Shown here piece by piece: positions 490-45,434 of a stretch of DNA of 47,887 nucleotides. The position numbers and the translations under genes were made by a program. Numbering within the stretch: position 1 is the stretch's first letter; every line of letters starts with the position of its first letter. The notes beneath the pieces are model-generated. The model saw nothing but the letters and a program-made list of their open reading frames with translations, was not told the DNA's origin and did not search any database. Source of the stretch: Methylocystis sp. (GTDB lineage: Bacteria; Pseudomonadota; Alphaproteobacteria; Rhizobiales; Beijerinckiaceae). The DNA lies in assembly GCA_016177005.1 (NCBI GenBank), contig JACOWC010000056.1, positions 1 through 47,887 of the forward strand, read 5' to 3'.

Positions 490-596
490 CCGTTTCCAGC
501 CTGTCGTTGCCAAATGCAGATAACGGTCGATTCCAAAAGTTTAGAGCGCGCTTTACACGAAAAACCGGATGCTGCTTTTTCCGCGCGCCGCGCTCC
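490..596 (+). repeat. Twin-hairpin palindromic element, copy A (left hairpin degenerate)
   Basis: gcagataacggtcgattccaaaagtttagagcgcgctttacacgaaaaaccggatgctgctttttccgcgcgccgcgctcc matches copies B-E. Confidence 0.75.
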
Positions 597-708
597 AGGA
601 AACCGGAAGAGTTCCAGCCGCCCGTCGGCTCGTGGCGAAGGTTCCGCAAACATGTTAAATTGAGGCAAATCTGTTCAGCATGGCGGTCAACCCACAGGTC
701 GTAGACTT

Positions 709-36549: not shown

Positions 36550-36668
36550 TTAGATCACGCTGCGTTTAGGCGAATCGCCTGAACGCGGATGACGTGATCG
36601 ATTCCAAAAACTTAGAGCGCGCTTTACGCGAAAAACCGGCGTCCACTTTTTCGCGAGCCGCGCTCTGG
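36550..36668 (+). repeat. Twin-hairpin palindromic element, copy B
   Basis: ttagatcacgctgcgtttaggcgaatcgcctgaacgcggatgacgtgatcgattccaaaaacttagagcgcgctttacgcgaaaaaccggcgtccactttttcgcgagccgcgctctgg. Confidence 0.92.
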
Positions 36669-36743: not shown

Positions 36744-37520
36744 ATGGCGTTGGAAGTCGCGCAGTTCATCTGCCTCAACGATAATTTCGGCCTGCTCGTC
36801 CATGAGCCGGAGCTCGGCGCGACCGCAAGCGTCGACGCGCCCGACGGCGAAGCGATCGCCAATGAGGCCGAGCGGCGCGGCTGGCCGCTGACGCATCTGC
36901 TGCTCACGCATCATCACGCCGATCACGTGCAGGGAACACAGACGCTCAAAACGCGCTTTCCGCACATGAAGGTCATCGGCGCCGCCAAGGATGCGCATCG
37001 ACTGCCGCCGCTCGATCGCGCGGTTTCAGAAGGCGACGTCGTCGAAATCGGCGAAGCGCGCGCGCGCGTCATCGAAACGCCCGGCCATACGCTCGGACAT
37101 ATCGCCTATTACTTCGAGGACGATGAAATCGTGTTTGTCGGCGACACGCTGTTCTCGCTCGGCTGCGGACGCGTTTTTGAGGGCACCATGGACATGATGC
37201 ATCTCACCCTCGAAGCGCTCGCCAATTTGCCCGGGGAAACGCTGGTCTATTGCGGCCACGAATATACCCAGGCGAACGCCAAATTCGCGCTCACCGTCGA
37301 CCCCGAAAATTCGGTGCTGCGCGCGCGGGCGCAAACCGTCGCCGATCTGCGCAAGGACGGAAAATTTACCCTGCCGACGACGATCACGCTCGAGAACGCC
37401 ACAAATCCGTTTCTGCGGGTCGAGGATCCGAGCGTAGCGGCCGCGATGGGCATGCGGGGCGCGGACCCTTCCGCGGTTTTCGCGGCGATGCGCGAGCGCA
37501 AGAACAAATTCGCCGCATGA
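36744..37520 (+). CDS. gloB: Hydroxyacylglutathione hydrolase (glyoxalase II)
   Basis: THLLLTHHHADHVQGTQTLK...ETPGHTLGHIAYYFEDDEIVFVGDTLFSLGCGRVFEGT. Confidence 0.95.
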   Translation: MALEVAQFICLNDNFGLLVHEPELGATASVDAPDGEAIANEAERRGWPLTHLLLTHHHADHVQGTQTLKTRFPHMKVIGAAKDAHRLPPLDRAVSEGDVVEIGEARARVIETPGHTLGHIAYYFEDDEIVFVGDTLFSLGCGRVFEGTMDMMHLTLEALANLPGETLVYCGHEYTQANAKFALTVDPENSVLRARAQTVADLRKDGKFTLPTTITLENATNPFLRVEDPSVAAAMGMRGADPSAVFAAMRERKNKFAA

Positions 37521-38086
37521 CGGGCGCGCTTTCGACGCAGGAGGTGGTGCGGCTTCTCGATCTGGCGCCCCATCCCGAGGGCGGCTTCTATCGCCAGACG
37601 TTTCGCGATTCCTCGTCGGTGGGCGGCGGCCGCGCCGCCTCGACGGCGATCTATTATCTGCTCTCCGGCGGCGGAGTCTCCGCCTGGCATCGGGTCGACG
37701 CCGCCGAAGTCTGGCACTTCTACGCCGGCGCCACGCTGGAGCTTAAGATCGCGACGTTAGATCACGCTGTGTTTAGGCAAAATCGCCTAAACGCAGATGA
37801 CGTGATCGATTTCAAAAGTTTAGAGCGCGCTTTGTGCGAAAAACCGGATTCCACTTTTTCGCAGCGCGCTCCAGGCGCGCCGACCGAAATCCTGCGACTT
37901 GGCGCCGAGCTCGGCGCTGGCGAGCGGCCGCAAGCCGTGGTCCCCGCAGGCGTCTGGCAGTCGGCGAAAAGTCTCGGCCGGGGTCCCGACGAATGGACTC
38001 TCGTCGGCTGCACAGTGGCGCCGGGCTTCGAATTCGCCGGCTTCGAACTGGCGCCGGCGGATTTCTCGCCCGACTGTTCAGCTTGA
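37517..38086 (+). CDS. DUF985-type cupin protein carrying an in-frame palindromic-element insertion
   Basis: MTGALSTQEVVRLLDLAPHPEGGFYRQTFRDSSS...VWHFYAGATLELKIAT-[LDHAVFRQNRLNADDVIDFKSLERALCEKPDSTFSQRA]-PGAPTEILRLGAELGAGERPQAVVPAGVWQSA. The ORF-list entry starts upstream at 37250; ATG at 37517 overlaps the gloB stop. Confidence 0.9.
   Translation: MTGALSTQEVVRLLDLAPHPEGGFYRQTFRDSSSVGGGRAASTAIYYLLSGGGVSAWHRVDAAEVWHFYAGATLELKIATLDHAVFRQNRLNADDVIDFKSLERALCEKPDSTFSQRAPGAPTEILRLGAELGAGERPQAVVPAGVWQSAKSLGRGPDEWTLVGCTVAPGFEFAGFELAPADFSPDCSA
37757..37872 (+). repeat. Twin-hairpin palindromic element, copy C (in frame inside the DUF985 cupin)
   Basis: ttagatcacgctgtgtttaggcaaaatcgcctaaacgcagatgacgtgatcgatttcaaaagtttagagcgcgctttgtgcgaaaaaccggattccactttttcgcagcgcgctcc. 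Confidence 0.95.
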
Positions 38087-41989: not shown

Positions 41990-44050
41990 CTATTCCGCTG
42001 CGATTACCCGCGGCGGCGTGAAGGCAATTTCGATCAGCGTGCCTTCGTTACGACTGCTCTTGACGCTGAAGGAGGCGTGATTCGCCTCGATCAAAGCCTT
42101 TGTCAGCGGCAGTCCAAGCCCCGTGCCGCTCGCCTTGCGCGCAGTGTCCACCCGCCGAAACGGTTCGAGCGCGGTTGCGACATCCTCCTCCGACATGCCG
42201 ATCCCGGTGTCCTTGACGCGAATGACGACAGCGCCGGCGTCATTGAGCGCGCTCGATACGATGACCTGCCCGCCCGGTTCGTTGAACTTCACCGCGTTCG
42301 ACAGAAGATTGAGAAGGATCTGCTTTAGGGAGCGCGGATCGGCGCGCAGCGGCGGCAGGCTCGGCGCAAGCGCCAAGCGCAAGACGACGCGCGCCTGATT
42401 GGCCTGCGCCTGCATCATCGACGCGCATTCGGCGATAACCGCATTGGCGTCCACGCGCGCGAAGGAAAGCTCCATCATGCCGGCTTCGATCTTGGAGAGG
42501 TCAAGAAGATCGTTGACGAGCGACAGGACATGCGCGCCGGAGGCGTGCATGTCCTTCAAATATTCTTTGTAGCGCGGAGAGCCGAGCGGCCCGAGACGCT
42601 CTTCCATCATCACTTCGGCGAAGCCGATGATGGCGTTGAGCGGCGTGCGAATCTCATGCGATACGCGGGTGAGAAAATCGGATTTCGCCGCATTGGCGCT
42701 TTCGGCGGCAAGCCGCGCCGCTTCAACCGCGGGGTCGCTTGAAGAGGCGCCTTCTTGCGCCTCGACCGACACGAGGAAGGTCGGTTTTCCCTCGACGGCA
42801 AGCGGGCGCAGCGCGAGGTCAACGGGAGCGCCGCCGGGCGGCGCCCGGGACAATGACAGTCGCGCGCGCGCGCCCGATAGAGCGCGCTGCGAAAAAGCTG
42901 AATCCGGTTTTTCGTCATCCGCACTTGGGCGATTCCGCTCAAATGCAGCGTGATCCAAAACCACGGACATGCGCTGAGCCAGGCTCTGCGCGTCGGAGGG
43001 GCTGAGGAGAGAGGCCAGACTGCGGTTCTCGCAGTCGCGCGCATCGGCGCCAAAGCATGCCGCGAACCGCGCATTGGCCCTCACGATCATTCCCTCAGCG
43101 GTCATGATCGCCAGCGGCGCGCCCGACAGGTCGAAAGCCGCGCCAAGCAGCGCGTTGTCCGATTTCGCCCGCGCGAGCCTCTCTTCGAGCGCGCGAGCGA
43201 GCGCCAAGGCGCTTTGCTCCGGACCCGGGGCGAGAAGTTCGCGGTTGCGCGGCGGCGTGGTCGGTTGATGCGTCTCCGGCGTGTCTTGTTTCGATTCGAG
43301 AGTGGCGGCCGCGTCCGACGCAATGATGCCGCCTTCCTTGAGCGTTCGCGCGATTTCATCGAAAGCCAATCGCTCGCTCGAGCTGAGCGACTCCAGCGCG
43401 TCCGATGCGACGCGCGGAGAAGATGGCGCGCGCAGCGCTACGACGTTGTCCCCTGACGCGCTAAAGGCGCTCCCTTCAGAGTTCGAAGCGCCGACAGCCT
43501 CCGCCGGCGGCTCGGCGGCGCCGCGCAATTCTTGCGCAGGCGAATCTGCGCGAACGCCGAGCGCCGCGATAACGAAAGAGACGCCGCTCTCCGTCTCCAG
43601 GCTGCGGCAAAGAAAGCTGAGCGTTTGCGCCGCGCCCACGAAGCCAAAGCGCAGTCGTTCAAGGCGCAGGCCCTGGTCGCTGCGCAGTTCGCCGACAAGC
43701 GCCGCCAGTCGGCGTGCGCCGGCATCGTCGTCGCGCAACAAGCGCTCGCCTGGAGCGCTTTCCGACCGGACGGAATCGTCTAGTCGATAAGAAATCGCTC
43801 CAGATTCAAAATGCTGGAGCAAAATCTTGTCGAAAAAGTCTATCAACTTTTTCGGATTTTGCTCTAGCGCTCCTACGTCCTCGCCAAAGACGGCGCAGGC
43901 TGAATCGTTGAGAAAATCGATGCGCAGGGGATCGCCGCTGGCGACGACGACCGGCGCGCCGGAGGCGTCAAGAGCAGAAAAAACAGGATCAGCCGCGACG
44001 CAAGCGGCTGCGCGCGCGCTGTGTTCGAGCTCCTCTTGCGAACCGCCCAT
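41990..44050 (-). CDS. PAS-domain hybrid-less sensor histidine kinase with two palindromic-element-derived inserts
   Basis: FLTRVSHEIRTPLNAIIGFAEVMMEERLGPLGSPRYKEYLKDMHASGAHVLSLVNDLLDLSKIEAG; LLNLLSNAVKFNEPGG; GTGLGLPLTKALIEANHA. Likely start MGGSQEELEHS at 44050; the ORF extends to 44149. Confidence 0.88.
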   Translation of the reverse strand: MGGSQEELEHSARAAACVAADPVFSALDASGAPVVVASGDPLRIDFLNDSACAVFGEDVGALEQNPKKLIDFFDKILLQHFESGAISYRLDDSVRSESAPGERLLRDDDAGARRLAALVGELRSDQGLRLERLRFGFVGAAQTLSFLCRSLETESGVSFVIAALGVRADSPAQELRGAAEPPAEAVGASNSEGSAFSASGDNVVALRAPSSPRVASDALESLSSSERLAFDEIARTLKEGGIIASDAAATLESKQDTPETHQPTTPPRNRELLAPGPEQSALALARALEERLARAKSDNALLGAAFDLSGAPLAIMTAEGMIVRANARFAACFGADARDCENRSLASLLSPSDAQSLAQRMSVVLDHAAFERNRPSADDEKPDSAFSQRALSGARARLSLSRAPPGGAPVDLALRPLAVEGKPTFLVSVEAQEGASSSDPAVEAARLAAESANAAKSDFLTRVSHEIRTPLNAIIGFAEVMMEERLGPLGSPRYKEYLKDMHASGAHVLSLVNDLLDLSKIEAGMMELSFARVDANAVIAECASMMQAQANQARVVLRLALAPSLPPLRADPRSLKQILLNLLSNAVKFNEPGGQVIVSSALNDAGAVVIRVKDTGIGMSEEDVATALEPFRRVDTARKASGTGLGLPLTKALIEANHASFSVKSSRNEGTLIEIAFTPPRVIAAE
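42879..42958 (-). repeat. Twin-hairpin palindromic element, copy F (shortened, in frame inside the histidine kinase)
   Basis: Minus strand ttggatcacgctgcatttgagcggaatcgcccaagtgcggatgacgaaaaaccggattcagctttttcgcagcgcgctct; lacks the 36-nt central segment of copy C. Confidence 0.88.
43752..43872 (+). repeat. Second-type twin-hairpin palindromic element, copy G (in frame inside the histidine kinase)
   Basis: ggagcgctttccgaccggacggaatcgtctagtcgataagaaatcgctccagattcaaaatgctggagcaaaatcttgtcgaaaaagtctatcaactttttcggattttgctctagcgctcc; two hairpins with the same GAAT loop and CGAAAAA/TTTTTCG arms. Confidence 0.85.
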
Positions 44051-44126
44051 GTGCCCTACACCGCCGCGACCGATGGCCGCTCGCCGCGCGCCTGTCAGGC
44101 GTCTCTCGCCCCGACGCCGATCGCGC

Positions 44127-44230
44127 CGCCTTTGGGCGGAATCGCCCAAGGGCAGATAACGTGATCGATCTCAATAGCTTAGAGCGCGCGCTCACGCGAA
44201 AATCCGGTTTTTTCCTTTTCGCCGCGCTCC
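44127..44230 (+). repeat. Twin-hairpin palindromic element, copy E
   Basis: ccgcctttgggcggaatcgcccaagggcagataacgtgatcgatctcaatagcttagagcgcgcgctcacgcgaaaatccggttttttccttttcgccgcgctcc. Confidence 0.88.
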
Positions 44231-44344
44231 AACGAGACGCCAATAAATTAATAGTGGTCGAATGCAAGGTCCACGATCGCCCATCGGACTTCCATATATT
44301 TTTGCATGGCCCGAAGCCTCGGCGCCTGCTGCGGCGCACAAAAT

Positions 44345-45313: not shown

Positions 45314-45434
45314 TTTAGAGCGCGGCTCGCGAAAAAGTGGATGCCGGTTTTTCGCGCAAAGCGCGCTCTAAGCTTTTGGAGTCGATCACGTCATCTGCGT
45401 TTAGGCGATTCCGCCTAAACGCAGCGTGATCTAG
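45314..45434 (-). repeat. Twin-hairpin palindromic element, copy D (inverted orientation)
   Basis: Reverse complement ctagatcacgctgcgtttaggcggaatcgcctaaacgcagatgacgtgatcgactccaaaagcttagagcgcgctttgcgcgaaaaaccggcatccactttttcgcgagccgcgctct. Confidence 0.95.

Follow-up and report, generated by a model that had tools for sequence, protein, structure and literature searches.

A twin-hairpin element, probably an IS630-type MITE, inserted in frame in a sensor kinase gene of Methylocystis sp.

In this work we have investigated a mobile element, copy G, which lies in frame within a sensor kinase gene of Methylocystis sp. The window, by which we mean the whole stretch of DNA analysed, comprises 47,887 nucleotides, and its own genome is a MAG of 2.06 Mb in 193 contigs, 65% complete. 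The observation of an in-frame mobile element in the kinase is confirmed. G belongs to a family of repeats with recognizable empty sites, with a TA duplicated on insertion and with an end motif in common with IS630. In all probability it is an IS630-type MITE of the twin-hairpin design known from CIR and RIME repeats, which was inserted in frame by chance and is tolerated. The kinase gene and the elements in or near it are as follows.

41990..44050, minus strand: gene of a PAS-PAS-HisKA-HATPase_c sensor kinase, carrying copy G (in the first PAS region) and copy F
42879..42958, minus strand: copy F, class I, which has lost ~36 nt internally and adds a net 78 nt in frame
44116..44232, plus strand: copy E, class I, 66 nt upstream of the kinase ATG at 44050
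43750..43867, plus strand: copy G, a complete twin-hairpin mobile element flanked by Y..TA and TA..R
43751..43752, plus strand: left copy of the target-site TA, mutated to TG (CTGG here, CTAG in sister copies)
43753..43800, plus strand: hairpin 1, which begins with the IS630-like end GAGCGCTTTC-N10-GAATCG (15/15 fixed positions)
43773..43777, plus strand: GAATC of loop 1, the IS630 subterminal motif and also a GANTC (CcrM-type) site
43801..43814, plus strand: linker joining the hairpins, which holds the second GANTC site, GATTC (43803-43807)
43815..43866, plus strand: hairpin 2, GGAGCAAAATC...GATTTTGCTCTA with inner arms CGAAAAAGT/ACTTTTTCG; the right target-site TA is 43865-43866

Comparison with orthologues showed what the gene looked like without the element. 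Both G and F are missing from all eight same-genus kinase orthologues compared. The protein matches break precisely at G, so that residues 1-62/63 abut residues 100-185, and the orthologue DNA, which lacks both the 114 nt of G and the 78 nt of F, reads ...GGAGCGCTT|GGCGAG..., the empty site for G being ..GCGCTT|GGCGAG.. or an equivalent. The net gain from G (114 nt, or 38 codons) is stop-free and in frame, and this insertion is private to one MAG; in F, the internal loss has kept the reading frame of the kinase. The preliminary description had proposed that one kinase carries two different element-derived segments in opposite orientations relative to the gene, with copy E just upstream of its start. 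All of this was borne out, the translation given for G is correct and in frame with the kinase, and the orthologues gave no sign of a conserved ordinary domain. Among the other five reading frames of the element, two are without stops or nearly so, and the survival of one in-frame copy therefore needs no special explanation.

Is it possible that the peptide encoded by G, EQNPKKLIDFFDKILLQHFESGAISYRLDDSVRSESA, was selected as a module altering kinase sensing, as in an adaptive coding element like the Rickettsia RPE? G does lie in frame in a PAS region, and the window has two more in-frame inserts, F and a class I copy in a Cupin_5 gene, which is missing from the Cupin_5 gene of five relatives. 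The remaining class I copies and the Cupin_5 gene are located as follows.

37517..38086, plus strand: Cupin_5 (PF06172) gene carrying a class I insert (E 7e-46, insert included)
37757..37874, plus strand: class I copy, a 38-codon in-frame insertion in this Cupin_5 (DUF985) gene
36550..36668, plus strand: class I copy, intergenic
45315..45434, minus strand: class I copy H, intergenic, downstream of phasin genes
496..598, plus strand: class I copy A, 5'-truncated

Nearly all other copies in the own and the named genomes are, however, intergenic or in a non-coding orientation, most G copies would add a net 113 nt and thereby shift a frame, and the insertion in the kinase is found in a single MAG. 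Open reading frames that span other copies (L002, L003, L005, L006, L014, L079, L083 and L089) looked like in-frame fusions, but they had no Pfam match and are probably spurious. L043 (in G028, a genome from another family) was also discarded as an in-frame copy, since it sits ahead of a gene which by eye resembles that of an FkbM-type methyltransferase. We therefore consider selection for the peptide highly improbable. A classifier based on codon usage, which had a recall of 86% and made no wrong calls on known genes (recall was 62% in an earlier version), placed the majority of classified copies of the own and named genomes between genes. It found no further tested G or class I copy in frame within a gene, although in-gene copies are undercounted by it, as it did not recognise the N-terminus of the kinase as coding. 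Two class I copies of the own genome, L070 and L077, break a reading frame.

Copy G is 118 nt long and carries no gene. Read along the plus strand it has the order C-TG(=TA)-GAGCGCTTTCCGACCGGACG-GAATC-GTC..., linker CAGATTCAAAATGC, ...GGAGCAAAATC...GATTTTGCTC-TA-G. The element had been placed at 43752-43872; it is indeed there, but its exact span is 43750-43867. The twin-hairpin design attributed to it was upheld by folding as single-stranded DNA, which gave exactly two hairpins at -34 kcal/mol, compared with -13.8 +/- 2.7 kcal/mol for shuffled sequences (z -7.5; none of 200 shuffles was as stable). Across 11 full G copies, ten base pairs of the stems have compensatory changes, whereas the loop GGAATC and the element ends hardly vary. 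R1, a covariance model made solely from G copies, also matches the opposite strand of G (1.1e-14), so that the element comes close to a single hairpin design repeated as an inverted dimer.

The insertion sites indicate that these elements move. The copies have the general form Y-TA-[GAGC...GCTC]-TA-R, and a search with joined flanks in eight relatives found clean empty sites for most of about 15 other copies tested. Unmutated empty sites hold one YTAR, namely CTAG for L077 (eight genomes) and TTAA for L008 (G018), and where filled sites show TA[..]TA the empty ones read CCCTAGAAG (eight genomes) and GTTTAACG. A single YTAR in the empty state and TA...TA in the filled state mean that TA is duplicated on insertion. 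At one intergenic site the own genome has a class I element, G005 has a G-type element only a few bases away, and G018 has no element. The site of L007 is also filled (~112 nt) in the sister genome G001, and that of L065 is occupied in several relatives but not in others, which indicates insertions of different ages.

Several other arrangements were seen among the copies. In G007 (C1:1114823-1115391, L185), five G-type elements stand head to tail and repeat every 113 nt exactly, a tandem MITE array in which adjoining elements have one TA in common. At L002, L005 and L012 (own contigs C70, C28 and C4), G-type elements adjoin the CTAG end of class I elements or their remnants, forming composite mosaics. 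Some copies are broken at or near hairpin tips, on the 5' side (L003, L011 and L015) or the 3' side (L014 and L019), by a hairpin-linked deletion or as an artefact of MAG assembly, and contigs end inside L009, L013 and L018.

Perhaps these sequences are retained chiefly for a function at the level of RNA or methylation (as an sRNA, an mRNA 3' structure or a CcrM/GANTC element), with rare recombination spreading them and mobility being secondary? Covarying stems and GANTC in loop and linker would fit such a role, as would the CIR literature. A search of Rfam gave sub-threshold matches only, among them a weak one to the Brucella sRNA BASRCI27 (E 6.8e-5 for H and 0.019 for G), which also points this way. 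But the precise TA-flanked polymorphism of empty and filled sites is the behaviour of a transposon, one locus holds different families in different species, and elements have inserted inside coding sequence, at L070 with loss of the frame. We thus find this explanation very unlikely. GANTC is present in the loops of class I elements as GAATC or GACTC in most copies. In the class I alignment A2 (L069, L079 and L087) the loop has changed from GAATC to GACTC, only at the N of GANTC; the GACTC loop there is that of three copies only, perhaps from one lineage.

What, then, moves the element? The IS630-family (PF13358) elements of the genus are 1045-1056 bp long, have the ends YTA|GAGCGGTTTC..GAATCG, with a further form YTA|GAGCGGTTTCTTCTCTGATT-GAATCG and similar, and produce TA duplications. 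G and these elements share the end motif GAGCGNTTTC-N10-GAATCG, and what had been described as the GAAT loop of G coincides exactly with the position of GAATCG in the IS630-family elements of the genus. When the window was scanned, the end of G was the sole TA or TG site to match the motif at 15/15 positions; of its ~6400 such sites, only those in family copies scored 12 or more, and the best outside the family reached 11. The consensus was picked after seeing G, which makes a check on whole genomes important. In five genomes (~18 Mb) the motif gave 25 hits, 22 of them G-type ends and three IS630 ends, and a reversed-motif control in the same genomes gave none. At the right end of G the match is limited to GAGC and a few further positions. 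Near position 2025 of L117 an IS630 copy adjoins a class I element, a single CTAG being common to both. IS630-family transposition with TA duplication has been shown biochemically, in a study which also cites the CTAG preference of IS630 (PMC2170065), and the pneumococcal RUP is a precedent for a MITE mobilised by IS630 (PMC2229807).

The preliminary description, which proposed a test for a shared mobiliser, had overlooked this likely candidate. G and IS630 have the end motif in common, but an IS630 with matching ends was found neither in the own MAG, at its 65% completeness, nor in G001, which has 36 element copies. It may have been lost or may simply be absent from the assembly. The number of elements does not follow that of IS630 copies, G010 having 19 IS630 copies and three elements.

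Two other kinds of transposase were considered. The IS5 group is able to use YTAR/TA targets, which speaks for an IS5/IS427-type (DDE_Tnp_1) enzyme, as proposed for Correia elements. We rejected it because neither the own genome nor G001, both rich in elements, gave a DDE_Tnp_1 match at E <= 1e-10, and because the end motif is missing from the DDE_Tnp_1 loci that relatives do have, the best scores there being 10-11, which is chance level; there is little chance that this enzyme is the mobiliser. The hairpins, the high copy number and the partly intergenic spread also recall REP/BIME-like repeats, which a RAYT (Y1 tyrosine) transposase moves through single-stranded hairpins. RAYT/IS200-type insertion is not known to involve a TA duplication, whereas our empty sites do show one. 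Moreover, Y1_Tnp is missing in most genus genomes with dozens of copies (G001, G004, G005, G006 and G007), RAYT loci are without the end motif and no Y1 transposase gene is associated with the repeat. Membership of the REP/BIME group is disfavoured, and we hold it to be extremely improbable.

The IS630-type family to which we assign G extends well beyond the window. In the own genome BLAST with G gave 29 matches, of which about 20 are complete or almost so and the best are 97% and 99% identical; the G copies there fall into three subfamilies and are accompanied by at least 40 class I copies. It had been suggested that G and copies A-F form a superfamily whose stems diverge while the junctions are kept, with the caveat that G might prove unrelated. 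Cross-testing of covariance models in both directions supports the relationship: R1 recovers, over its full length, four of the window's class I copies (E 4.5e-12, 1.6e-10, 1.4e-9 and 3.9e-7), and R2, built from class I (A-F type) copies, finds G (E 5.5e-9). The contrast between stems and junctions also holds, the kept parts being the IS630-like terminal and subterminal motifs and GANTC in loop and linker. R1 has matches in 19 of 31 relatives, including three other families of the order, with 29 to at least 119 copies per genome in most well-assembled genomes of the genus and none in three. With strict filters, R2 matched in three of 113 other genomes of a class-wide sample. Named carriers include Methylocystis, Methylosinus, Methylocella, Terrarubrum and Sinorhizobium meliloti pSymB, where a class I homologue at 486407-486508, possibly a RIME, matches over most of its length (74% identity, R2 E 1.1e-12) and carries no annotation in the feature table consulted.

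How do these elements compare with known systems? By description they resemble the Caulobacter CcrM-associated intergenic repeats CIR1-4 (Chen and Shapiro 2003): both are ~110 bp long, with two long inverted-repeat arms and a linker, occur in alphaproteobacterial hosts, and have GANTC in an arm's terminal loop (GAATC in loop 1 of G) and TA termini. CIRs are reported never to lie within genes, to have stops in all frames and to be of unknown mobility (PMC2229807). Of the present elements, in contrast, three (G, F and the Cupin_5 copy) extend a gene in frame, and the family combines IS630-like ends with a duplicated TA. RIME, the Rhizobium-specific intergenic mosaic elements (Osteras 1995, as cited in PMC2573895), are by description similar, being repeats of Rhizobiales that lie between genes and are conserved in sequence and structure. 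RUP, the IS630-Spn1 MITE of Streptococcus pneumoniae, is likewise non-autonomous, ~107 bp long and provided with IS630-like ends and a TA duplication (PMC2229807), but it differs in host phylum and sequence, has no open frames, lies between genes or in ISs, and is not described as a twin hairpin with a GANTC loop. The Rickettsia RPEs are also short palindromic repeats in frame in protein genes (PMC10969869); they enter genes very often and have a conserved peptide, whereas in-gene copies are a small minority here. The Methylocystis IS630 elements have the same termini, YTAR target and TA duplication as G, which differs from them in having no transposase and an interior of two fold-back hairpins. 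The MITE type, the twin-hairpin design (CIR/RIME) and in-frame MITEs in Rickettsia are thus already known, and the link to IS630 and the intragenic copies are modestly new.

On the basis of these comparisons we propose that G is a non-autonomous element, both of whose ends resemble those of IS630-family insertion sequences of the genus. Most likely an IS630-type transposase acting in trans excised it and pasted it into the TA of a YTAR, duplicating the TA. Each hairpin would be the fold-back of one IS630-like end, so that the loop GAATC and the terminal GAGC would be conserved as the recognition sequence of the transposase, and the stems, which would need only to pair, could drift through compensatory change. 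With a net insertion of 114 nt and a frame open in that orientation, the kinase would have been lengthened rather than broken, and the insertion probably tolerated without a new function. Judged from sequence, the conservation of GAATC/GATTC may reflect recognition by IS630, a GANTC role as in CIR elements (PMC2229807), or both. A wider and rather doubtful idea is that the CIR/RIME-like twin-hairpin repeats of alphaproteobacteria with a GANTC loop form one IS630-driven MITE superfamily. In it GAATC, the motif recognised by the transposase, would also be the CcrM site, transposition would be coupled to the phase of the cell cycle in which DNA is hemimethylated, and proteins would occasionally gain a peptide from an element.

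The loop motif, through its exact match to the subterminal motif of IS630 ends, offers a concrete and testable candidate mobiliser for the twin-hairpin repeats of Rhizobiales and Caulobacter, to which none had been assigned in decades. The series of empty sites is a clean system in which to test the movement of the elements, and the intragenic copies indicate that in-frame lengthening of proteins by such elements is not confined to Rickettsia.
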